A stretch of DNA of 64,000 nt from Gordonia crocea (lineage in GTDB: Bacteria > Actinomycetota > Actinomycetes > Mycobacteriales > Mycobacteriaceae). Location of the stretch: assembly GCF_009932435.1 (NCBI RefSeq), contig NZ_BJOU01000008.1:1-64000 (forward strand), read 5' to 3'. Both the position numbers and the translations under genes were made by a program. Positions 19,320-49,999 of the stretch are shown here, piece after piece (positions within the stretch are counted from its first letter, which is position 1; each line of letters starts with the position of its first letter). The notes under the pieces are model-generated. The model had not been told where the DNA came from. It was given only the letters and a program-made list of their open reading frames with translations, and did no database searches.

Positions 19320-20867
19320 CTAATTGTTGCTGGTAGACGAGGAACTCTGATTGCTCTGGTTCCCGCCATTCGCCCCGAATCCGCTAAACGACGGGGCAGA
19401 CGGCGCCGACGGGACCGACGGCCGCCAACCGCGGCCCGCACCCGGCGCCGCCGGCGTCTGGTTGGCGCTCTGGCCTCCCTGCGTGGACCACTGGTTGGTG
19501 CCGCCGTTCTGCTGCCAACCGCTGCGCCACTGCTCGGTGCGCTGCTGCTGGCGCTCGGCCCAGTTCTGCTGGGTCTGCTGAGCCGCATTGGCGCCGGATT
19601 GCCACGCGTTCTTGGCTCCCGACTGGAATTTCTGCACCGCATTGGGCACCACCCCGGCAACACCGGTGGCTCCGGTGGTCCCGGTGGTTCCGGTGGTCTT
19701 CTGCGGGGTGGTGTTGGCCGATGCCGAACGGGCGGCGAACGTGCTCGGCGTAGTTCCGGTGGTACCCACCGTCTGCTGCAATGCCGAGAAGGTCGTCGGC
19801 ACGCTGCTCGCCGCCGCGAGCGTGCTCGTCGTGGTCGACGTCGAGAACGGCAGGTTCTCCAGCGGGTTGTTACCGCCGATGATGTCGCCGATCAGACTCG
19901 CCAACGCCGCCAGGTTGTCACCCGGGAACCGAATGTTGTTGAACCCCAACCCACTGATGCCCGGGATGATCTGTGAGGCGTCAAACGCGCCCGTGGTCAG
20001 CACGGGGAAGCCGAAGTAGTTCGACGTGCTGGGCGTAGCAACGTTGTCTTCCGACGAGGCGATCTTCGGGAAGATCGTCACCTCCTGGCCGAGCCACTTG
20101 ACGGTGATCGGATTCTTCAATCCATAGTCGCTCGTCAACGAGACGATGCTCGGCAGACCGTACGCCCCGGTACGACCGCCCCAACTGAACCCGAGGCGAA
20201 CGAAGTCGTCGGTCAAGAACTTCTGGATCGCGCGAGAATCACCGTTGGTCACGTCTGTAAGTAGCGAAAGCAAAGCTCCTACTGGGTCATCGATAATCGA
20301 CAGGGCACCCAGCGGATTAACCAGCGCACCGGATATCGATCTATCATTCGGATTGTAGTCTGCCCCTAGTACTCCAAGAGCATTCACACATGCTCCATCG
20401 GTCGACGAGTAGCCGAATGTCAATGCCCCGAGGCAAACCAATTGCCCCGGGATTGCGAAGCCAGGAAAAACCCCGGGGATAGCAAGCAGCGACGTATCTG
20501 TCGTCGCCAATGCCAGACCGATCATTGAGAATGCGGTAGCACTCTCACCGGTACCCGCAAAGGTGGCCGCGAGAGAACCCGGCAACACAGCAATCGAGTT
20601 GGTATCGCCGACATACCCTTTGACCAAGTTCCAGGCAGTCGATCCAAAAAGGTTCGTAACCAGCCCTTCCGGGTCGATAGCCGTGCCGCCGAGAATGCTC
20701 GTCGAGTCGGCTTGTGCTGGCGCTGGTGGTGCGACGAGGCCTGCGCCGAGCCCTATCGCGGATGCTGCTGCGATTGCGGCGACTCCCCCGCGCATCCGCA
20801 TGCTGCGCCGACGCGCAGCCCTGTTCTGTGTCCCCCGGTTACCGTCTTTGAGCTTCCTTGCCTTCAC
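19320..20867 (-). CDS. large secreted protein of unknown function (intact paralogue)
   Basis: A 515-residue protein. The start is GTG at 20867 (VKARKLKDGNRG) with AGGAG 5 nt upstream; the frame is open further but without a ribosome site. A long basic n-region and hydrophobic core (RMRGGVAAIAAASAIGLGAGLVA) end in APAQA, a signal peptidase I site near residue 54. The middle holds LTDDFVRLGFSWGG, LPSIVSLTSDYGLKNPITV and WLGQEVTIFPK. These blocks recur in the neighbouring interrupted paralogue. The last ~130 residues are low complexity: Thr/Ala runs, then Gln/Trp/Asn-rich repeats (AQQTQQNWAERQQQRTEQW), ending in Ser/Asn. No catalytic motif or known family is recognised. An envelope-surface or matrix role is a guess. 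Confidence 0.75.
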   Translation of the reverse strand: MKARKLKDGNRGTQNRAARRRSMRMRGGVAAIAAASAIGLGAGLVAPPAPAQADSTSILGGTAIDPEGLVTNLFGSTAWNLVKGYVGDTNSIAVLPGSLAATFAGTGESATAFSMIGLALATTDTSLLAIPGVFPGFAIPGQLVCLGALTFGYSSTDGACVNALGVLGADYNPNDRSISGALVNPLGALSIIDDPVGALLSLLTDVTNGDSRAIQKFLTDDFVRLGFSWGGRTGAYGLPSIVSLTSDYGLKNPITVKWLGQEVTIFPKIASSEDNVATPSTSNYFGFPVLTTGAFDASQIIPGISGLGFNNIRFPGDNLAALASLIGDIIGGNNPLENLPFSTSTTTSTLAAASSVPTTFSALQQTVGTTGTTPSTFAARSASANTTPQKTTGTTGTTGATGVAGVVPNAVQKFQSGAKNAWQSGANAAQQTQQNWAERQQQRTEQWRSGWQQNGGTNQWSTQGGQSANQTPAAPGAGRGWRPSVPSAPSAPSFSGFGANGGNQSNQSSSSTSNN

Positions 20868-21036
20868 GACATCTCCTGCTTCCTGGTTACCGTCCGGCAG
20901 AACTACCGGCCCTTCGATTGAAACACCAGAAACTGGACAAGTGGCCCGATTGGTGTAAACTTTCGCGGCGAAAGTCCTGGTCAAACGTCCAAGAGTGCAA
21001 GTGCCACCGGGCCGGACACGAGGAAGCAAAGAAGAA

Positions 21037-21073
21037 CCGCGCCCGCCGGGACTTTCGTCACCGACGGGCGCGG
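21037..21073 (-). terminator. hairpin after the interrupted secreted-protein gene
   Basis: CCGCGCCCG (21037-21045) pairs with CGGGCGCGG (21065-21073), 18 nt beyond the minus-strand stop at 21091. The arms match the other two hairpins of this locus. Confidence 0.6.
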
Positions 21074-21090
21074 AGTTAACGAGACGGGGA

Positions 21091-22637
21091 CTACTGCCCG
21101 GCGCCTCCGGTTGTCGGGGAGGCACTACCGGCCGGCCCAGGCGTGGTGGACTGTGCACCGTCACTCGCGGGCGGGTTGCTGGTTCCCTTGTTTCCGCTGA
21201 AGAACTTGCTACCGAAGCGAGAGGTGAATCCATTCGAGGTTCCCTCGCCAGAGTTCGACTTCGGCGTCGAGTCCCACGAGTTGGTTCCATCCTGCTGCCA
21301 GCTCTGCTTCTGCTGCTGCCAGGCCTCCTGGTTCTGCTGACGCTGAGCCTTCCACGCCTCGGTCGCGGCCTTCGGCGTCTGGAACGCCTGGGTCGCGGCC
21401 TGCTTGGCCGTGTTGGTCATAGTCTGCGTCTGCTGCTGGGTCTGGCTCTTCCAGTTCTTGACGGCATCACGGCTCTTCGAGGTGATAGACGAGGTCGTGC
21501 TGCGCGCGTTGGTCGTATCCGCCGCCGCCAGCTTGGTCGCGTCGGCACCGTCGACGCCGTAGCTCGCCGCCAACGGAGCAACCGCCGTGGTGTTCATACC
21601 AAGGGCCTTGGCGACCACGGTGTTGGTGCCGAGGTTCTGGACCGTGTTCGTGTCCACATTCGCCAGCGGCAGGATGCCGCCCAGGCCGAGGGTGTTGGTC
21701 AGACCGCTCACCACACCGGTCAAGCCACTCGTGGCACTGGTGGTGCTGGTGCCGCCGAGCAAACCGCTCAGCGGGTTCGATCCACTGAACAGGTCGAGCA
21801 GCCCCAGGTTGATGTTGTCGAAGCTCAGGCCGCTGAACGACGGGGTGAGCTGCGAAGCATCGAACGAACCCGTCAGTTGCGGAAGGGCGACGTAGTTGGG
21901 CGTCGTCTTCCCGTTGATCTTGGCGGTCGGGAAGATCGTCAGCGTCTGCCCGAGCCAGTTGATCTTGATCGGGTTGATCAAGCCGTAGTGGCTGGTGAGC
22001 GCCACCAGATTCGGCAGTTGGAGCGAGCCGATCTTGGCACCGTCACGATCTCCGCCGACGGTCAACCGGACAAAGTCCGACGTAAGCAGGTCCTGAAGTG
22101 GGGCACCGGTAAGAAGGCCAGTCACCAAATCCCCCATAGTCCCACTCGGATCCGAGAGGATCTCAAGCATCGCAAGCGGATTGGTGAGCCCTGCCTGAAA
22201 CTCGGGGATCGACCGGTCACCTGTCAAGACCCGCCCATCGAGAGTGCCGAGCACGTTGCCGCACGCGCCGACTCCTTCGGCGTAAGCGCCAGCCACAACA
22301 CCAAGGCAGTCCAGACGCTTGATCCCAGGAATTGAAATCGGCGTGGTAACCCCCAGCAGTGAGGTGGTGATCTTTTCGGTATTCCATGCATTGGCAATTC
22401 CCAAAACCGCGAACGCAACCGACGTCCGACCGTTGCTCGCACCCGAGGTAGCGACACTAAATGGAAGAAGCGCTATTGACGTTGCTTTCCCGCCTCGTGA
22501 CGCGAAGGCAAACTTGATGCCATCTCCGATCACGCGAGCACTCCCAGTCGGCTCTTCAGCATCGGCAATATTCGGAATCAACAGCCCAAGAATGGGATCA
22601 TTTGCGAGTGCTTGAGCGGGGTCAAATAAGGCCCTAG
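21091..22637 (-). pseudogene. 3' part of a secreted-protein gene split by the composite transposon
   Basis: The frame is open from the transposon border to the stop at 21091 (~515 codons) and has no start of its own; the first residues are RALFDPAQALANDPILGLLIP. It carries the blocks shared with the intact paralogue: LTSDFVRLTVGGDRDG, LPNLVALTSHYGLINPIKI and WLGQTLTIFPT. The C-terminus is rich in Gln, Trp, Ser and Asn (AWQQQKQSWQQDG). The missing N-terminus lies at 27841-28211. Joining 28211-27841 to 22633-21091 gives 1,914 nt, exactly 638 codons including the stop, with no frameshift. The gene was therefore intact before insertion, which suggests a recent event. Confidence 0.88.
22634..22637. 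repeat. left copy of 4-bp target-site duplication (CTAG)
   Basis: CTAG immediately precedes the IS end CCTCGATC at 22638. The matching CTAG follows the far end of the second IS copy at 27841-27844. Confidence 0.85.
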
Positions 22638-22809
22638 CCTCGATCTTTCGTGAGGTGCCGCTCCCGGCCTGATCGGTTCGGATTGATTGCGGCAGAACAG
22701 ATTATGTCCTGTGGATATGACAGGGCGACCGTTGTCGCTGGTGGCGGCCGGGTTTCACGTCACCGGCGGTGGTCTTTCGGGGTTGGTTGGTCGGGTCGGG
22801 TCCGGCAGG

Positions 22810-24201
22810 TCAGCGGCTGGTGCGGTAGCCCTCGAGGCGGTGCAGGCCGGCGGTGAGGACTGGTGTCCATTGGTGGTGCTGGTCGTAACGCAACCGGCGG
22901 GTGCGGGCGTGGCGGGCCAGGCGGGCGGCGGTCGCCCACAGGCGTAGGCGGAGGCGTTTGATTTCCCAGGTGCGCGCATCGGTGCCGGTCAGCGCGAGCA
23001 TCTGGGTCCAGGCGGTCAGGTCGGTGGCCAACTCAGTGATGGCGAGCCAGATCTGGTTCTTGGTGAAGTCGTGGTACGGCAGGTTCGTCATGCCGGTCGC
23101 TTTCGCGGCCCGGATGCGGTCTTCGCACCGGGCCCGCAGCCGGTGCCGTACTTCGAGGTCGGCGAGTTGCCCGCGGCTGCTGTTGGTGACGAAGCAGGTC
23201 AGGCGCCATCCGTTGGTGTCGGTGAACCGCAACTGGGCGCCGGGGTGGGGGCGTTCGCGGCGCACGATCACCCGCATACCCGGCGGATAGCCGGTCAAAG
23301 ACAGGACCCCGGTCAGTTCGGCGACCTGGGCCCCGTCACGGGGCTGGCCGTCGGCGTTGTAGGCCTGGGTCCACACCGATGCGGGCAGCACTTCGACCGC
23401 GGCGGCCATGGCCGGGGTCATACCAATCCCACACGAATACGACAGGCCCCGTTTGTGCAGGTAATTCAGGAATCCTTTGGTGCCGCCAGCACTATCGGTG
23501 CGGATGAGGATCTTGCGGCCGGCCCGCCAACACAGACCCGGGATCTGGGCCAGGGCCCGGTGAAGGACGGTGATGTGGTCGGCGGCGGTGTTCGCCCCAG
23601 CATTCCCGGCCCGCAACAATCCTGCGGCGGCTTCCCCTGTTCCACCGGGGCCGTGGTCGATGAACGCCAGCAGCGGGTGGAACCCGAACCCCCGCTTATA
23701 GGTCGGGGCCGCGTCCTGTTTCTCCGAGTGCGCGGTCACCAGGGTCGCATCCAGATCGATGACCAACGGGTGGTGTTCATCGATCCGATGGTTCGGGGCA
23801 TGCTCACCGGCCAACTCCCACACCGTCTTTCGTGCCACAGCCCGCGCGCCGGCGATCGCGGCCAGCGCCGCGACCGGTTCGTCGGCCAGGGTCGCGATCA
23901 GGCGAGAGACGGTCGGATCCGAGGCCACCGGCCCGAACACCGTCTCGCGGCCACGCAGCACCGCCAGATCAGCGGCGCAGTCGGCGCCGCCGACCATCGC
24001 CACAGCCAGATCCAAGACGATCTTGCCCGGATCATGGGTCGCATAGTCCTTGCGCCACGGCGTCAGCGCATCACTCAACAGCCTCGGAAGGCCTGCGACC
24101 TCGGCTGTGCGGGTCACCAACGCCAAACCCGCATGCGACACGATCCCCGCACCGTCACCGGTGACCGTCGACTGCGGATAGAACAGGGTAGAGTTACTCA
24201 C
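22810..24201 (-). CDS. IS1380-family transposase, copy 1
   Basis: A 463-residue DDE transposase. Likely catalytic surroundings are VIDLDATLVTAHSEKQ (first Asp, ~145-160) and ILIRTDSAGGTKGFL (second Asp, ~235-250). The family-typical substrate stretch TYKRGFGFHPLLAFIDHG lies between them. The length is full and no frame is broken, so it should be active. The start is GTG at 24201 (VSNSTLFYPQ). Its GGAG ribosome site lies inside one arm of the 24203-24275 inverted repeat. The protein differs from copy 2 at about five residues (for example Leu6/Val6 and Pro48/Leu48). Confidence 0.93.
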   Translation of the reverse strand: MSNSTLFYPQSTVTGDGAGIVSHAGLALVTRTAEVAGLPRLLSDALTPWRKDYATHDPGKIVLDLAVAMVGGADCAADLAVLRGRETVFGPVASDPTVSRLIATLADEPVAALAAIAGARAVARKTVWELAGEHAPNHRIDEHHPLVIDLDATLVTAHSEKQDAAPTYKRGFGFHPLLAFIDHGPGGTGEAAAGLLRAGNAGANTAADHITVLHRALAQIPGLCWRAGRKILIRTDSAGGTKGFLNYLHKRGLSYSCGIGMTPAMAAAVEVLPASVWTQAYNADGQPRDGAQVAELTGVLSLTGYPPGMRVIVRRERPHPGAQLRFTDTNGWRLTCFVTNSSRGQLADLEVRHRLRARCEDRIRAAKATGMTNLPYHDFTKNQIWLAITELATDLTAWTQMLALTGTDARTWEIKRLRLRLWATAARLARHARTRRLRYDQHHQWTPVLTAGLHRLEGYRTSR

Positions 24202-24202
24202 C

Positions 24203-24275
24203 AGAAAGGTGCTCCTTCGTCCTCGCTTGGTCGTGCTGTCGCAAGAACGATTATTCCAGGTCAGAGCACCTTTCT
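24203..24275 (-). promoter_or_regulatory. 12-bp inverted repeat masking the transposase ribosome site
   Basis: AGAAAGGTGCTC (24203-24214) pairs perfectly with GAGCACCTTTCT (24264-24275). In RNA read from outside through the IS, both arms would be present and the transposase GGAG would be sequestered. Copy 2 has the same arms at 27721-27732 and 27782-27793. A transcript starting inside the loop would lack the upstream arm and be translatable. Confidence 0.65.
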
Positions 24276-24340
24276 TTATGTCCTGGGCCGCGTGTTCGTC
24301 AATTCGCTATGAAATAGCGAGGCTAATTCACCCGGCAGGC

Positions 24341-24377
24341 CGCAGGGCCGCCACTTCTTCGAAGTGGCGGCCCTGCG
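24341..24377 (-). terminator. strong hairpin after the porin genes
   Basis: A 17-bp perfect stem (24341-24357 with 24361-24377) closes on a 3-nt TTC loop. It begins 25 nt beyond the stop of the second porin gene. No U-tract, but the stability suggests termination of the porin transcript before the IS. Confidence 0.75.
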
Positions 24378-24401
24378 AGGATTGTGATCCGAAGCGAGGT
24401 T

Positions 24402-25058
24402 CTAGCCCATGGAGAAGGGGCGTCCGTAGAAACTCATACTCTGCATCGCATGCTTGGTCTCGATCTGGACACTCGCGAAGGAACGGGCTTGGGCATAGCC
24501 ACCGCAGCCACGTAGACCTAGCTGCGAGTTGGTGTAGCTTAGTGAAGCGCGCTTCTTCTTCTTGTAGGTGATCCGCTTGTCGTGCTTGTCCTGGCCGAAG
24601 TCATCGGCGCGCTCAGCGTCCACCAGGTAGAAGGCGCGTGCCTGGCCGGGACCGAGGGACACAGATGTCCCTGCCTCGGCGCCGTCGAACCCGTTTGCGT
24701 CGATGCCACTTCCACCTTCTCCGGAGACGCTGGCCAGGTTGACCTGGCAGCCAACAATGTAGCCGGGGTAGATCTCGATCCGGCTGGCCTCCTTGGAAAG
24801 GGTGACGATGAGCTTGCCGGATACCCATGCGTTGCGGTGCAGGGGGGTGCCACCCAACGATGGGTTGACATTAGCCCGTTCCCGGACCCTCTGAAAGGTG
24901 ACTACGGTTCCGTCGCCCATGGTGTAGCGCTGGGTCTGAGATGGCAGGTTGTAGACCGTGTCTGCTTTTGCGGAAGGTGGCGCAGCAGTCAGGGCGCTCG
25001 TCACCATCACGGCCGCTGCGGCGGCCGTGAGACCAGTAAACTTCGCCTTTGTCTTCAT
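24402..25058 (-). CDS. MspA-family porin, second gene of the pair
   Basis: A 218-residue protein with a Sec signal peptide (MKTKAKFTGLTAAAAAVMVT..., cleavage after SAKA near 31). The mature domain has MspA-family blocks: GDGTVVTFQRVRERANVNPSLGG (split here by strand turns), NAWVSGKLIV, GYIVGCQVNL, and a C-terminal GCGGYAQARSF. MspA-type porins form goblet-shaped channels through the mycolic-acid outer membrane for small hydrophilic solutes. The lysine-rich stretch YKKKKR near 180 is unusual. The gene starts 35 nt after the first porin gene, so the two are co-transcribed. Adjacent unequal pairs are known as NfpA/NfpB in Nocardia and GjpA/GjpB in Gordonia; a heteromeric channel is inferred. Confidence 0.88.
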   Translation of the reverse strand: MKTKAKFTGLTAAAAAVMVTSALTAAPPSAKADTVYNLPSQTQRYTMGDGTVVTFQRVRERANVNPSLGGTPLHRNAWVSGKLIVTLSKEASRIEIYPGYIVGCQVNLASVSGEGGSGIDANGFDGAEAGTSVSLGPGQARAFYLVDAERADDFGQDKHDKRITYKKKKRASLSYTNSQLGLRGCGGYAQARSFASVQIETKHAMQSMSFYGRPFSMG

Positions 25059-25093
25059 AAAATTCTCTCTTCTCTTGAATGTGTTGGCGAGGT

Positions 25094-25795
25094 TCAGCCG
25101 ATGGGGAACGGCTTGCCCCACAGCTGGATCTTCTGGTGATCTTCGCCGGTCACCTCGATGACCGCGTAGGAGCGTGCCTGGGCGTAGCCCCCGCAGCCTT
25201 GGATCTCCATCTGTACGTTGCGCCAGTTAAGGAAGTAGGTCCCTGGTTCCTCGAGGTGCTTTCCTTTTTTGCTGGCAGTCACGGGAGCGTAGATGATCTG
25301 GCCGGGCGCGAGCGGAAGGGAGATGGAACCGGCGATGGTGTCTAGTAGGCCTGTATTCGCGAGAGAACCCTCGGCTCCGAGCTTCAGTTGGCCGATATCG
25401 ACTTGGCAGCCGACGACGTAACCGACAGAGAGGGTTGCTGCCGCGCCGGCCGTTGATACGCCATTCGAACCAGGTGCGGCGTCCTCGCCGAGTGGACCGT
25501 TGTTAGGGCCGACTTCGCGAGTGTCGATTCCGGGGGCGATAACTTTCACGTTGCCCGAGACCCACACCGAACGACCGGCACCATTGGCGGCGAGCGACGG
25601 GCCGATACGGACACGCTCGCCTGTCTTGATGAGGGTCACCCCGTCGCCGCGCACTTTGCCGTTCGGGAGCGAGAACCGCGCGTCGGCCATCGCGCTGGGC
25701 ATGGCTCCGCCGATCGCGACCGACGCGGCGAGTACGGTCGCCGCGCCAACAAATCCGGTCGCTACGCGGCGTGTAGCAGCGGTGAATGTGTTCAT
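25094..25795 (-). CDS. MspA-family porin, first gene of the pair
   Basis: A 233-residue protein. ATG at 25795 has GAGGAAA ~5 nt upstream; an in-frame start 12 nt earlier overlaps that site. The signal peptide (MNTFTAATRRVATGFVGAATVLAASVAIGG) ends near SAMA at ~41. The mature part contains GDGVTLIKTGERVRIGPSL, SVWVSGNVKV, GYVVGCQVDIG and the C-terminal GCGGYAQARSYAVIEV, all matching the family and the second porin. A Gly/Asn/Pro-rich insertion (about residues 92-118) is longer than in its partner. Both genes are cargo between the IS copies. Confidence 0.88.
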   Translation of the reverse strand: MNTFTAATRRVATGFVGAATVLAASVAIGGAMPSAMADARFSLPNGKVRGDGVTLIKTGERVRIGPSLAANGAGRSVWVSGNVKVIAPGIDTREVGPNNGPLGEDAAPGSNGVSTAGAAATLSVGYVVGCQVDIGQLKLGAEGSLANTGLLDTIAGSISLPLAPGQIIYAPVTASKKGKHLEEPGTYFLNWRNVQMEIQGCGGYAQARSYAVIEVTGEDHQKIQLWGKPFPIG

Positions 25796-26155
25796 GTGTT
25801 TCCTCATTCTGTGGCAGGTCTCGGCTGGCTTGGTTACCTGGTTCGCGACTGCGCGCGTCCCTCGACAACTCGCCGAACGATACGGTGGAAAAGTATCGGA
25901 ACTGTGACTTCTGGGCCACCAGCGGTGAATGTTTGCGAACGGTAAGATGGATGGTCAGTGAACGCAAAGTGCTTGTCGGGCGGTCTGAGGCGCAATCTCG
26001 CGGGTCGTCGGTGAGTTGGGATCGGATTGAGTCTAAAGTATGTGGGGCTGGTTTAGCGGAAGGGCTGTTGCTAGGTTTGCTGCGATAGTAGTGGGCGGGA
26101 GGGGCGTGTCGGTGTGATGCGGCTGAGGGGAGACGGGCGTGATTCGGAACGTTAG
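25796..26155. other. porin upstream region and inner IS flank
   Basis: A 360-nt stretch within the transposon cargo with no convincing gene. It should hold the porin promoter, reading leftward. A short plus-strand open frame here has no ribosome site or family match. It ends with TTAG against the second IS copy. Confidence 0.6.
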
Positions 26156-27840
26156 CCTCGATCTTTCGTGAGGTGCCGCTCCCGGCCTGATCGGTTCGGA
26201 TTGATTGCGGCAGAACAGATTATGTCCTGTGGATATGACAGGGCGACCGTTGTCGCTGGTGGCGGCCGGGTTTCACGTCACCGGCGGTGGTCTTTCGGGG
26301 TTGGTTGGTCGGGTCGGGTCCGGCAGGTCAGCGGCTGGTGCGGTAGCCCTCGAGGCGGTGCAGGCCGGCGGTGAGGACTGGTGTCCATTGGTGGTGCTGG
26401 TCGTAACGCAACCGGCGGGTGCGGGCGTGGCGGGCCAGGCGGGCGGCGGTCGCCCACAGGCGTAGGCGGAGGCGTTTGATTTCCCAGGTGCGCGCATCGG
26501 TGCCGGTCAGCGCGAGCATCTGGGTCCAGGCGGTCAGGTCGGTGGCCAACTCAGTGATGGCGAGCCAGATCTGGTTCTTGGTGAAGTCGTGGTACGGCAG
26601 GTTCGTCATGCCGGTCGCTTTCGCGGCCCGGATGCGGTCTTCGCAGCGGGCGCGGCGGCGGTGCCGCATTTCCAGGTCGGCGAGTTGCCCGCGGCTGCTG
26701 TTGGTGACAAAGCAGGTCAGGCGCCATCCGTTGGTGTCGGTGAACCGCAACTGGGCGCCGGGGTGGGGGCGTTCGCGGCGCACGATCACCCGCATACCCG
26801 GCGGATAGCCGGTCAAAGACAGGACCCCGGTCAGTTCGGCGACCTGGGCCCCGTCACGGGGCTGGCCGTCGGCGTTGTAGGCCTGGGTCCACACCGATGC
26901 GGGCAGCACTTCGACCGCGGCGGCCATGTTCGGGGTCATACCAATCCCACACGAATACGACAGGCCCCGTTTGTGCAGGTAATTCAGGAATCCTTTGGTG
27001 CCGCCAGCACTATCGGTGCGGATGAGGATCTTGCGGCCGGCCCGCCAACACAGACCCGGGATCTGGGCCAGGGCCCGGTGAAGGACGGTGATGTGGTCGG
27101 CGGCGGTGTTCGCCCCAGCATTCCCGGCCCGCAACAATCCTGCGGCGGCTTCCCCTGTTCCACCGGGGCCGTGGTCGATGAACGCCAGCAGCGGGTGGAA
27201 CCCGAACCCCCGCTTATAGGTCGGGGCCGCGTCCTGTTTCTCCGAGTGCGCGGTCACCAGGGTCGCATCCAGATCGATGACCAACGGGTGGTGTTCATCG
27301 ATCCGATGGTTCGGGGCATGCTCACCGGCCAACTCCCACACCGTCTTTCGTGCCACAGCCCGCGCGCCGGCGATCGCGGCCAGCGCCGCGACCGGTTCGT
27401 CGGCCAGGGTCGCGATCAGGCGAGAGACGGTCGGATCCGAGGCCACCGGCCCGAACACCGTCTCGCGGCCACGCAGCACCGCCAGATCAGCGGCGCAGTC
27501 GGCGCCGCCGACCATCGCCACAGCCAGATCCAAGACGATCTTGCCCGGATCATGGGTCGCATAGTCCTTGCGCCACAGCGTCAGCGCATCACTCAACAGC
27601 CTCGGAAGGCCTGCGACCTCGGCTGTTCGCGTCACCAACGCCAAACCCGCATGCGACACGATCCCCGCACCGTCACCGGTGACCGTCGACTGCGGATAGA
27701 ACACGGTAGAGTTACTCACCAGAAAGGTGCTCCTTCGATTCCGGATATTTGTACTGTCGCAAGCACAATTATTCCAGGTCAGAGCACCTTTCTTTATGTC
27801 CTGGGCCGCGTGTTCGTCAATTCGCTATGAAATAGCGAGG
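26156..27840 (-). mobile_element. IS1380-family insertion sequence, copy 2
   Basis: A 1,685-bp element in the same orientation as copy 1, with the same terminal repeats (CCTCGATCTTTC left, inverse CCTCGCTATTTC right). Nearly identical to copy 1 over most of its length, with scattered substitutions and one strongly divergent block at ~27737-27768. The substitutions show it is a separate element and not an assembly duplicate. Confidence 0.9.
26328..27719 (-). CDS. IS1380-family transposase, copy 2
   Basis: A 463-residue transposase, full length, start GTG at 27719. It has the same motifs as copy 1 (VIDLDATLVTAHSEKQ and ILIRTDSAGGTKGFL). It differs by about five residues: Val6, Leu48, Asn in GMTPNMAAA, and Met and Arg in LEMRHRRRA. 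The leader keeps the 12-bp inverted-repeat arms, but the loop between them, where the promoter should lie, is quite different from copy 1. Confidence 0.93.
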   Translation of the reverse strand: MSNSTVFYPQSTVTGDGAGIVSHAGLALVTRTAEVAGLPRLLSDALTLWRKDYATHDPGKIVLDLAVAMVGGADCAADLAVLRGRETVFGPVASDPTVSRLIATLADEPVAALAAIAGARAVARKTVWELAGEHAPNHRIDEHHPLVIDLDATLVTAHSEKQDAAPTYKRGFGFHPLLAFIDHGPGGTGEAAAGLLRAGNAGANTAADHITVLHRALAQIPGLCWRAGRKILIRTDSAGGTKGFLNYLHKRGLSYSCGIGMTPNMAAAVEVLPASVWTQAYNADGQPRDGAQVAELTGVLSLTGYPPGMRVIVRRERPHPGAQLRFTDTNGWRLTCFVTNSSRGQLADLEMRHRRRARCEDRIRAAKATGMTNLPYHDFTKNQIWLAITELATDLTAWTQMLALTGTDARTWEIKRLRLRLWATAARLARHARTRRLRYDQHHQWTPVLTAGLHRLEGYRTSR

Positions 27841-28211
27841 CTAGGGACCATCTCCAGGTTCCCTGGAGCCACAACTGCCACACCGATGTTAGTAGAAAGG
27901 GAGCAGTCAGCCCCGCCACGTTGAACACCTTCGGCAGCACAGATCTGCATCCGCCATTGATCCGCAATCGGCGCCAAAACCGAGTCAGCGCCCGCCGTAA
28001 TACTGCCGATGATGCCTTGGAGACTTCCCGCCCCCGCAAGCGCATCAGAAAGCAAGTCCGCGCGCGCCTCCTGCGGCGGCGCCACGAGCGCGCCGCCCAG
28101 CGCGAGCGCGGAGGCCGCGGCTACGCCGGCGACCATGCCGCGCATACGACTGCTGCGGCCCGTCCTCACCTTGGCCCCCCGACCATCATCGTCACGCTGT
28201 TTCGTCTTCAA
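27841..28211 (-). pseudogene. 5' part of the secreted-protein gene split by the composite transposon
   Basis: It begins at TTG 28211 (LKTKQRDDDGRG). An AGGAG and following bases match the leader of the intact paralogue, which starts with GTG at the same point. The signal peptide (RMRGMVAGVAAASALALGGALVA, cleavage after EARA) and ~75 mature residues follow, ending GNLEMVP at the transposon. As it stands, the frame runs into the IS and stops at 27825, which would give a 128-residue truncated secreted peptide. CTAG at 27841-27844 is the right copy of the target duplication. Confidence 0.88.
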
Positions 28212-28683
28212 CGACTGCTCCTGTCTGCCTGGTCCACGTCGACCAATCCGCCGGCTGCAACACCGGTCTTTGCGCATTCAAACACTGAATTTATCCTGAG
28301 TGACGCGGAACACACAAATCGCCCGCACCTATTCTGACCTGGGCAGATGTCCAAGAAGTTGGGGCGATCGTCCAACTCGGGAGTCAGTAAGCGGACCAAA
28401 GTCCAGGACAACGCGCGATTCACGCTGGTCAAAGCGCTCCTCGCTAGCGCATAGCTAGCACCTTGCGAGCACCACCCCGGCCCTCGCCGCCGACTCGGAA
28501 ATTGCCTGCCGCGATTCGGCGTGTCGCGGCGCAAGGACGACGCCTCGGATCGCCCCGGGCCTTCAGAAGACCCGGCACTTGTCAGACGATCGGCGTACAC
28601 TGGTCACTAGATACAAAAACCACAGCACATAGTTTCTAACAGCGGTCCGCACGCCATGATGCGAACCCGGACCTGGGGGTCAC
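28212..28683. other. intergenic region between the split gene and the HNH gene
   Basis: No gene seen. It should hold the promoters of the leftward secreted-protein gene and the rightward HNH gene. A TACACT -10-like element lies at 28596-28601. GCTAGC occurs twice close together (28443-28448 and 28454-28459). Confidence 0.6.
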
Positions 28684-30009
28684 ATGAACCACGACGAACT
28701 CGCCGCATTCGTCACCGACCTGGCCGACGATTTGGCGCCAGCTGCCGTCGAATCCGGTAGCGGTGTGGGTGCCTTGTTGGCCTCCGCGGAAGCGATCGTC
28801 GACGACAAGGCTTTGCTGGGGGTGATGGTCACCGCGGTGCGCATGGGCAACATCGCCTCCTATCTGTTGGCTGCTGCGACGGCGCGGGCCGAGAAGATCG
28901 GCATTCCAGTGCGGCACCGGTTGAAGAACGGCCGCGATCTGTTACGGGAGTTGCCGTTGGCGCCGGCCACTATCAACCGGGTCGCCCGGTTGGCCCAACA
29001 CTTGGATGATTTGCCGAACCTGGTGCGCGAGGTCCGCGACGGCGACCTCACCGTTGACCATGCCGATGCGGTCATCCGCGGTCTCGACCACATTGCCACC
29101 CGCATGGGTGCCGATGGTTTCGATGACGTGCGGGCGAAGACCGCCACCACATTGCTGGCGCACGCCCGCATTGACCAACCCGCCCAAGTCATGGAGAAAG
29201 CCCGCGAACTCGGCCACGAGTTGGCGCCGTTGGATCCGCCATCCACCCCGCCCGCGGACAATCCGTCGTTGAATCAGGCGACCGTGTCGCGCACCGATGA
29301 GGGGCGGGTGACCCTCGAAGCGGACCTCGATCAGCTGTCCGGGGAGAAACTCCACACCGCGCTGGATGCCCTGGCGAAGCCCATCCCGGCACCCGACGGT
29401 TCCCCGGATCCGCGTTCCAGGTCCCAGCGCACCGCTGATGCCCTGGTCGCCATGATCAGCAGCTACCTTGCTTCACGGAACCGTCCGACGGTGGGCGGAA
29501 TCGTCCCGCACATCACGATGACCGTGCCGCTACCAACGCTGGTACCCGACAGTCCTCTGGGTCAGACTCATGCCGCACGGCTGGGGTTCACCGGCTCGGT
29601 ATCAGCGGAGACGGCCCGTGAGATCGCCTGCGGCAACACCGAAGTCACCGCGCTGCTCACTGCAGACTCGGTGCCATTGGACGCCAAACGCACCCAACGA
29701 TTCGTCACCGGCACCCTCCGCCGCGCGTTAGAAGCACGCGACGGCGGATGCCAATTCCCCGGCTGCGGCACGCCACCGTCGTGGTGTGAAGGCCACCATA
29801 TTCAGCACTGGGCCGACGGGGGCGAGACGAACCTCAAGAACACCGTCCTGCTGTGCAGCCTGCATCACCACACCTACATCCACGGCAAAGGCTGGAACAT
29901 CCAAATCGGCTTCGACGGACACCCCTGGTTCCAGCCGCCCGAAGGAGGTGACTGGATCCGCTGCCACAACCGACGCACCCTCACCCTCGCCAACCACGCC
30001 GCGGCTTAA
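28684..30009 (+). CDS. DUF222/HNH endonuclease-domain protein (13E12 repeat type)
   Basis: A 441-residue protein. The N-terminal two-thirds is the helical DUF222 region. The C-terminus is an HNH nuclease domain with RRALEARDGGCQFPGCG (~347-363), SWCEGHHIQHW (~367-377), GGETNLKNTVLLCSLHH (~380-396) and the four zinc Cys. The family is common in actinobacteria and includes the mycobacterial 13E12 repeat proteins, often linked to repeated or mobile DNA. It probably cleaves DNA, but its biological role is unsettled. ATG at 28684. A boxA-like sequence and a long stem lie downstream. Confidence 0.9.
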   Translation: MNHDELAAFVTDLADDLAPAAVESGSGVGALLASAEAIVDDKALLGVMVTAVRMGNIASYLLAAATARAEKIGIPVRHRLKNGRDLLRELPLAPATINRVARLAQHLDDLPNLVREVRDGDLTVDHADAVIRGLDHIATRMGADGFDDVRAKTATTLLAHARIDQPAQVMEKARELGHELAPLDPPSTPPADNPSLNQATVSRTDEGRVTLEADLDQLSGEKLHTALDALAKPIPAPDGSPDPRSRSQRTADALVAMISSYLASRNRPTVGGIVPHITMTVPLPTLVPDSPLGQTHAARLGFTGSVSAETAREIACGNTEVTALLTADSVPLDAKRTQRFVTGTLRRALEARDGGCQFPGCGTPPSWCEGHHIQHWADGGETNLKNTVLLCSLHHHTYIHGKGWNIQIGFDGHPWFQPPEGGDWIRCHNRRTLTLANHAAA

Positions 30010-32643: not shown

Positions 32644-33405
32644 ATGGGACCAAGCGAAGCACTGCCGCCGGCGATGACGACTGCGACCGTCGCTGCGGCA
32701 GCGGGGTACTCCGTGCAGCAGGTGCGCGATTTGGAAGCGCTCGGGGTAGTCGGACCGGCGGCGAGGACCGGCAGCGGATACCGACAGTTCTCCCCCGAGC
32801 ACGTGCGCGGCCTACGGGCCTACCGCGATCTCGCCCACGCCGTTGGGCCGGTCGACGCGCGGCGCGCCCTACGACAGATCCGCCGCGACCCGCCGGACCG
32901 GGCCGCGGCCCTGGTCGGCGAGTTCCACAGCCGACTCAACCGCGAGCGCGAACAGACCCTGGCCGCACGGGCCGCCCTAGAGTCGATCAGCGCCGAGGCG
33001 GCCACCGACGCCCCTCCAGCCGCCGGCGACGCCATGACGATCACCGAACTGTCCCAGGCGCTCGGCGTCCGGGCGTCGACGCTGCGTTTCTGGGAAAGCG
33101 TCGGACTCGTCGCGCCGGAGCGGGTGCCCACGGCGGCGGGAACCGCTCGGCGGTATCCGGTCCGGGCGATCCGCGAGGCCCGCATCACCGCAGCACTCCG
33201 TGCCGGCGGCTACCGGATCCCCGAGGTAATGCAAGCGATCACCGCGATCCGCGAACTCCCCGACGTCGCGACCTCGCTGGCCGCGCTCGACGCCCGCCTG
33301 CAGGCCATCTCCCAGCGCGCCCTCGCCCTACTCCGTGCCGGAGCACTCATCGCCGAGATCATCGAGGGCGCCGCACCGGATTCTCAGTTGTCGTCGCCGC
33401 CCTGA
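32644..33405 (+). CDS. MerR-family regulator with two HTH domains
   Basis: A 253-residue protein with two MerR-type winged helices. The first is at ~10-70 (TVAAAAGYSVQQVRDLEALGVV, GYRQFSPEHVRGLRAYRDL) and the second at ~131-195 (TITELSQALGVRASTLRFWESVGLV, RRYPVRAIREARITAALR). A helical linker joins them and a coiled-coil-like end follows. Two-headed MerR proteins are uncommon but occur in actinobacteria. ATG at 32644 follows GGAGGG by 4 nt; GTG 32626 and ATG 32632 are in frame but overlap that site or the operator. The 3' end overlaps the convergent lipoprotein gene by 22 nt. Confidence 0.82.
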   Translation: MGPSEALPPAMTTATVAAAAGYSVQQVRDLEALGVVGPAARTGSGYRQFSPEHVRGLRAYRDLAHAVGPVDARRALRQIRRDPPDRAAALVGEFHSRLNREREQTLAARAALESISAEAATDAPPAAGDAMTITELSQALGVRASTLRFWESVGLVAPERVPTAAGTARRYPVRAIREARITAALRAGGYRIPEVMQAITAIRELPDVATSLAALDARLQAISQRALALLRAGALIAEIIEGAAPDSQLSSPP

Positions 33406-34367
33406 TCGTTGTTCTGATCGCCGCCCTGGTCGTCGCCGCCCTGGTCGTCGCCGCCCTGATCGTTGTTCTGATCGCCGCCCTGGTCGTCGCCGCCCTGATC
33501 GTTGTTCTGATCGCCGCCCTGGTCGTTGTCGTTCTGGTCGTCGTCGTTCTGATCGTTGTTGTTCTGGTTGTCGTTGTTCTGGTCGTCGTTCTTCTGCTCT
33601 CCAGGGCCCTGCATCTGGTTCTGGCCGGGCTCGGGCGGACCGGGCTGGGCCGGCGCGATGTAGCTGCCCGCGGGGCAGCCCGGGTCCTGATTGGCCGCAC
33701 AGTACTGGCGGGTGCGGTTGTTACCGGTGGAGCCGTCCGCCCCGGTCGGGCCGCCGGCAATCGGGTTGCCGTTGGCATCCCAGACGCCGTGCGCACCGGA
33801 ATCGCCGCCGTTCTCCTTGGGATCGGTGCCGGCACCGTGGTTGGGATTGGTGCAGATGGTCCCCTCACACTTCACGTAGTGCGGGCCGCCGCGAGGGTCG
33901 CGCTGGGCGTTGGGCCCCACGTAACTACCGCGCGGGCAGGCCGGGTCCTCGTTGCGGGCGCAGTGCTCCTGCGTGAGGTTGTTGCCCGTCGACCCATCCG
34001 CCCCCACCGGGCCGCCGTGGACCGGGCGACCATTGGCATCCCAGTAGCCGTGCCCGTCGTGGTAGCCGGTGAACGGCCCGACGTAGCTGCCCACCGGGCA
34101 ACGCCGATCCTGGTTGTGCGCGCAGAAGTGACGGTCGAGGTTGTTGCCCGTCGAACCGTCGGCACCCTTGGGGCCGCCGTTGATCGGGTACCCGTGGATA
34201 TCCCATCCCGCTGTCCGGGGATCAGGCTTGGACGGGTCGCCCTGCTTGGCCGCGGACACCGGCGAGGCCGCGGAGTCCGGCGAACTCTTGGAGTCGTCGC
34301 TGCTACAGCCGCCGATCACCAATGTCAGTGCGGCCAACAAGGCCCACACCCCGAATAGCTTCTTCAT
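33384..34367 (-). CDS. lipoprotein with three ~40-residue repeats and an Asn/Asp/Gln/Gly tail
   Basis: A 327-residue lipoprotein (MKKLFGVWALLAALTLVIGGC, lipobox IGGC at ~18-21). Three repeats follow, each with GxPxxGGPxGADGSTGNN, one Cys in xxCAxNxD, one in CPxGSY, and a closing Y(V/I)xP. They start near residues 57, 106 and 195. The last ~85 residues are almost only N, D, Q and G in NNDQGGDDQGGDQ-like units. The DNA of this tail is itself a tandem repeat (about 33390-33600), prone to slippage. ATG at 34367 with GGGAG upstream. No known family; calcium binding or a surface-exposed spacer is a guess from the acidic Asp/Asn repeats. Confidence 0.8.
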   Translation of the reverse strand: MKKLFGVWALLAALTLVIGGCSSDDSKSSPDSAASPVSAAKQGDPSKPDPRTAGWDIHGYPINGGPKGADGSTGNNLDRHFCAHNQDRRCPVGSYVGPFTGYHDGHGYWDANGRPVHGGPVGADGSTGNNLTQEHCARNEDPACPRGSYVGPNAQRDPRGGPHYVKCEGTICTNPNHGAGTDPKENGGDSGAHGVWDANGNPIAGGPTGADGSTGNNRTRQYCAANQDPGCPAGSYIAPAQPGPPEPGQNQMQGPGEQKNDDQNNDNQNNNDQNDDDQNDNDQGGDQNNDQGGDDQGGDQNNDQGGDDQGGDDQGGDQNNDQGGDDN

Positions 34368-42489: not shown

Positions 42490-46446
<3,957 letters not shown>

Positions 46447-46480
46447 TTGTGCCTCTCAGTTAGTAAGTAGCTGGTCGTAG

Positions 46481-49999
<3,519 letters not shown>

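Follow-up and report, generated by a model that had tools for sequence, protein, structure and literature searches.

Composite transposons, in which two copies of one insertion sequence (IS) move the DNA between them, are the closest described counterparts of the locus reported here. For example, Tn6097 of Paracoccus is a composite transposon bounded by two IS1634-family copies; such elements have two IS copies, target duplications at the outer ends only, and unrelated cargo carried as a unit (PMC3281130). The same source reports IS1380-family transposable modules, ISPme1 and IS1247a, that mobilize neighboring genomic DNA by means of a single IS copy, the far end being variable (PMC3281130). 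Among MspA-type porins, NfpA/NfpB of Nocardia farcinica, which form channels only together, and PorA/PorB of Rhodococcus ruber are encoded as adjacent subunit pairs, and the accessible part of the source mentions no mobile element for them (PMC9233653). Porins of Gordonia have also been studied (PMC4559739), and Gordonia porin sequences share only about 47% identity with the N. farcinica protein.

The locus analyzed here lies in Gordonia crocea, within a 64,000-nucleotide stretch of contig NZ_BJOU01000008.1 (hereafter the window), and combines features of these systems. An IS-cargo-IS block of 5,203 bp (22638–27840) consists of IS copy A, a cargo segment of 1,833 bp, and IS copy B. Its overall layout is that of Tn6097-type transposons, but it is built from an IS1380-family element and carries a pair of outer-membrane porin genes rather than resistance or catabolic genes. 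The IS family is shared with the ISPme1 and IS1247a modules, which have one IS copy, whereas the Gordonia block has a complete IS at both ends. As in NfpA/NfpB and PorA/PorB, the two porin genes are adjacent. Among the matches listed from open-licence PMC texts, none describes a composite transposon that carries a porin pair, and we find nothing in those texts on IS1380 elements with CTAG or on IS1380 composites in Rhodococcus.

An earlier note on this DNA, made by inspection, had described two 1,685-bp IS1380-family copies in direct orientation around two MspA-family porin genes, with CTAG at the outermost ends only, and both parts of that description are borne out. Specifically, flank comparison reads CTAG (22634–22637), copy A (22638–24322), a cargo segment that starts with CTAA and ends with TTAG (24323–26155; 61.2% GC), copy B (26156–27840), and CTAG (27841–27844). 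Two copies of one IS are thus present at both cargo ends, as in a composite transposon, and the target duplication occurs at the outermost ends only, a feature whose weight is limited by the target preference of this IS group (see below).

The transposase of copy A scores 314.5 bits against the NCBIfam IS1380 model (cut-off 180), and all 3 IS copies in the genome exceed this cut-off. The 463-aa transposase frame is open in 3/3 copies, including copy A (22810–24201, minus strand) and copy B (26328–27719, minus strand), and the ends of both copies are intact, with terminal inverted repeats CCTCGATCTTTC / CCTCGCTATTTC. The third copy (C; locus L004) lies on another contig (C1:2169823–2171507) and has a clean 4-bp CTAA duplication; no IS copy beyond these 3 was found in the genome. 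Over the 1,685 positions, A and B differ by 27 mismatches, A and C by 9, and B and C by 34. These differences are clustered in patches: at 8 variable sites between positions 212 and 234 A has the bases of B, and at 26 others it has those of C. Copy A thus resembles a recombinant of the B and C types, which would mean that exchange between IS copies has occurred. Outside this genome, 160 plasmid records hold relatives of the IS; none is near identical, and two span at least 80% of it, at 67–68% identity. A search of the G. araii genome with the IS copy gave no match.

The strongest evidence for movement as a unit comes from the DNA on either side. The block sits within a minus-strand gene whose product is predicted to be exported, with the 5′ part, which has a signal-peptide-like start, at 27841–28277 and the 3′ part at 21091–22637. 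When the flanks are joined over a single CTAG, one frame stays open through the junction, with ...NLEMVP on one side and RALFDP... on the other. Homologues of the 3′ part occur in 44 of 101 genomes, our own included, and are confined to this genus. We fetched 30 homologous loci (our own and 29 others); many of the 14 other matching genomes had weak hits. All 29, from genomes of other species, align continuously to the joined protein across the junction with no such insert; the host protein is poorly conserved at that point, with small gaps, and these alignments show the absence of an insert rather than the exact sequence of the site. The comparison with relatives for an empty site, which the earlier note had proposed, therefore finds the host gene uninterrupted throughout, albeit in other species only. 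In-frame rejoining over one CTAG and 29/29 continuous homologues together indicate that the net event is insertion of the whole block, as a single unit, into a pre-existing gene, in line with the idea that a compound unit had entered in one piece.

The interrupted gene belongs to a family of exported-looking proteins with a Gln/Thr-rich tail, found only in this genus among the 101 genomes searched, and the family has no match in Pfam or NCBIfam. An intact paralogue adjoins the interrupted gene (window 19320–21290). In Gordonia sp. X0973 and G. araii, the orthologue of the interrupted gene is likewise surrounded by this paralogue and further neighboring genes.

The outer CTAG pair had also been taken as a sign that the unit moved as a whole. 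The match is present, but on its own it is a weak argument, given the preference of the IS group for YTAR targets, and the case rests on the interrupted gene. We surveyed 20 IS loci of relatives, of which 13 have a clean 4-bp duplication and 7 do not (L110, L114, L115, L116, L120, L121, and L122; several of these are partial copies). The clean duplications are CTAG in 8 loci and TTAG in 5, and with the CTAA of our own third copy 14/14 are YTAR; scoring favored TAG or TAA endings by a bonus, and an unbiased first pass gave 6 of the 13, with the result unchanged. Taking the sum of the squared frequencies (8/14, 5/14, and 1/14), the chance that two unrelated insertions share a quadruplet is about 46%. 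CTAA and TTAG, found at the inner flanks, complete this IS group's own target set, and would be the expected leftovers of two earlier insertions at YTAR sites.

Given this arrangement, we consider it likely that the block is a roughly 5.2-kb composite transposon that moved as IS-porins-IS by transposase acting at the outermost ends. Under this model, two IS1380-family copies would first have inserted on either side of the porin pair, at CTAA and TTAG sites; transposase would then have used both outermost ends together, mobilizing IS-porins-IS in one piece; and the unit would have landed at CTAG in the exported-protein gene, duplicating that quadruplet. That transposase rather than recombination was the mover is an inference, as are continued mobility of the unit and function of the pores. 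Against transposition, the flank scar would be identical if a circle had recombined into a resident IS, copy A is itself a mosaic, and neither a second location of the unit, a strain with an empty site, nor a circular form was observed.

The circle route is the alternative that survives best, although we regard it as rather unlikely. It supposes that a lone IS lay at CTAG in the host gene and that an IS-porin circle later recombined into it, the circle having arisen by recombination between direct IS copies elsewhere. It yields the same flank pattern, and the mosaic structure of copy A shows that exchange of this sort takes place. It requires, however, two events and a resident IS, and the genome has neither a second IS-porin locus nor a further copy of the porin segment, which is present once.

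Misassembly at the 1.7-kb repeats is far less probable. The genome is in 19 contigs, several of them small, and in a protein record, P0005, the first porin is cut at residue 151; the contig behind that record, of 4,036 bp, does not belong to this assembly. Yet copies A and B differ at 27 sites, every junction is precise, the third IS copy was assembled inside a contig of 2.47 Mb, and a false join is not expected to leave the duplication exact and the gene in frame. Weakest of all, and scarcely credible, is independent insertion of two IS copies around an already resident porin pair, which we rejected: chance agreement of the outer quadruplets is frequent enough, as calculated above, but the inner flanks differ from the outer ones, and the porin pair itself lies within a gene that is continuous in all of the fetched homologues.

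The composite transposon favored here has a porin pair as its cargo. Both genes exceed the Pfam MspA (PF09203) cut-off of 22.9 bits, at 115.8 and 91.9 bits, and a single-sequence search against PDB chains (E 0.001) gave no match. Their order is B type, then A type, and both frames are intact. The first gene (25094–25795, minus strand) is of B type and has an internal CTAG at 25342, and the second (24402–25058, minus strand), assigned with Pfam and a tree, is of A type. Against G. araii, dN/dS is about 0.10 and 0.13 for the cargo genes, rough values since dS is above 1 and near saturation, and we read both genes as being under purifying selection.

The proposal that the cargo is the main permeability channel of the cell is not supported, as the genome has 13 MspA-family matches. 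Two of these are fragments of a single frame-split gene, and a separate multi-gene porin cluster is among them. The cargo is instead an additional porin pair and a predicted channel. MspA matches are present in 59/59 genomes of the genus. The genome's own cluster (C1:1202.3–1206.1 kb) is the counterpart of the G. araii cluster and consists of pairs of another type; its first pair is closest to Gordonia sp. X0973, and an equivalent of the cargo pair is absent from it. The second gene of its pair 2 (L067:11776–12460) is split into two overlapping frames of 155 and 117 aa, and would be either a pseudogene or the product of a sequencing error.

The nearest porin loci are those of G. araii NBRC 100433 and Gordonia sp. 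UBA7599. Trees were built separately for proteins of the A type and of the B type, each with 11 rows and with the frame-split gene of our own cluster left out. In both, the cargo gene groups as sister to its counterpart in the lead pair of G. araii (supports 96/95 and 100/99), and pair 2 of UBA7599 comes next. Identity of the cargo pair to G. araii is 86 and 83% in local alignment and 77 and 78% over the aligned proteins. This lead pair (NZ_BAEE01000021.1) has the gene order and the upstream element of the cargo, but it belongs to a three-pair chromosomal cluster in a genome where the IS is unmatched. Among the 11 window ORFs with hits in the fetched stretches of both species, 8 are closer to G. 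araii and 3 to X0973, and the identity of the cargo pair to G. araii is near the range of those ORFs.

The pair may be native or horizontally imported. GC3 is low in the cargo genes, at 74.4 and 73.5%, vs 87.8–95.0% in four porin genes of the own cluster. The interrupted host gene is also low (76.3%), the G. araii lead pair has 79.5 and 78.1%, and 7 and 6 of the 41 window ORFs lie below the two cargo genes.

The porin segment has no match above 75% DNA identity in the 100 relatives searched, the first porin has 2 matches in plasmid records (both <60%), phage records hold no match to the cargo, and viral contigs none to the porB stretch. Outside the window, no IS1380 copy lies within 10 kb of an MspA gene among the matches listed, as compared by eye.

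The cargo also retains sequences beyond its two genes. A 17-bp element, CTCCGTAACGTTCGGCG, is found 55–75 bp 5′ of the lead pair, exactly in our own cluster, X0973, and UBA7599 and with 1 mismatch in G. araii. The cargo version, CACCGTATCGTTCGGCG (25871–25887, minus strand), has 2 mismatches and lies 75 bp 5′ of the first porin gene. The positions in the four Gordonia genomes are L067:9241, L069:11296, L070:8312, and L071:3274. The motif was chosen from these same sequences, which makes the single-base shuffle control an after-the-fact one, and the element is a candidate regulator or promoter site. It is no better than chance 5′ of our own pair 2, G. araii pair 3, UBA7599 pair 1, and X0973 pair 2, and is weakly present (4 mismatches) in Gordonia sp. 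TBRC 11910 (G024). At the other end, 3′ of the second porin gene, folding reveals a hairpin with an 18-bp stem and a 3-nt loop (24340–24378, minus strand). It had been called a terminator; the hairpin is real (z −5.67) and terminator-like, but it lacks a T-tract, and no terminator is listed by the terminator scan. Judged from these parts, the cargo is a complete cassette—i.e. upstream element, two intact genes, and hairpin—and, since all of these are kept, expression of the cargo is probably still possible.

Protein record P0005 (158 aa), obtained in a protein search, is identical to the first cargo porin over 151 residues and then ends in VSRFINS. Identity stops exactly at the gene-internal CTAG, a site of the target type of this IS. 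No match to the tail pattern was found in this genome, with a single set of Ser and Arg codons allowed. The record may come from another isolate or assembly with something joined at that CTAG, and both insertional inactivation and an assembly end are possible. The tail is incompatible with the CC-start ends of this IS, which points to another element or an assembly end at the junction. A broader reading would be an active porin transposon in which two envelope channel genes and their control element form a self-contained unit that moves, is itself silenced by insertion, and varies envelope permeability, with P0005 possibly its switched-off form; we hold this to be doubtful.

Discussions of mycolic-acid outer-membrane permeability usually treat it as chromosomal and regulated. 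At this locus the mechanism is ordinary and the cargo unusual, the structure being confirmed and the interpretation partly supported, and envelope pores are probably movable as transposon cargo in this Gordonia. With a complete porin pair and the upstream element on one transposon, channels could be gained, relocated, or lost directly, which, if true, would affect nutrient and drug entry; it would also explain why porin-cluster content differs between Gordonia species.

Several other features of the window surround the block. A DUF222/HNH-nuclease protein (Pfam; 28684–30009) directly adjoins the interrupted gene, and a short degenerate repeat array at 33390–33590 encodes or overlaps a low-complexity stretch. 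The block lies in a chromosomal region about 15 kb from rpoC and rpoB (Pfam; 42490–49999), which are about 97% identical to those of Gordonia sp. X0973.
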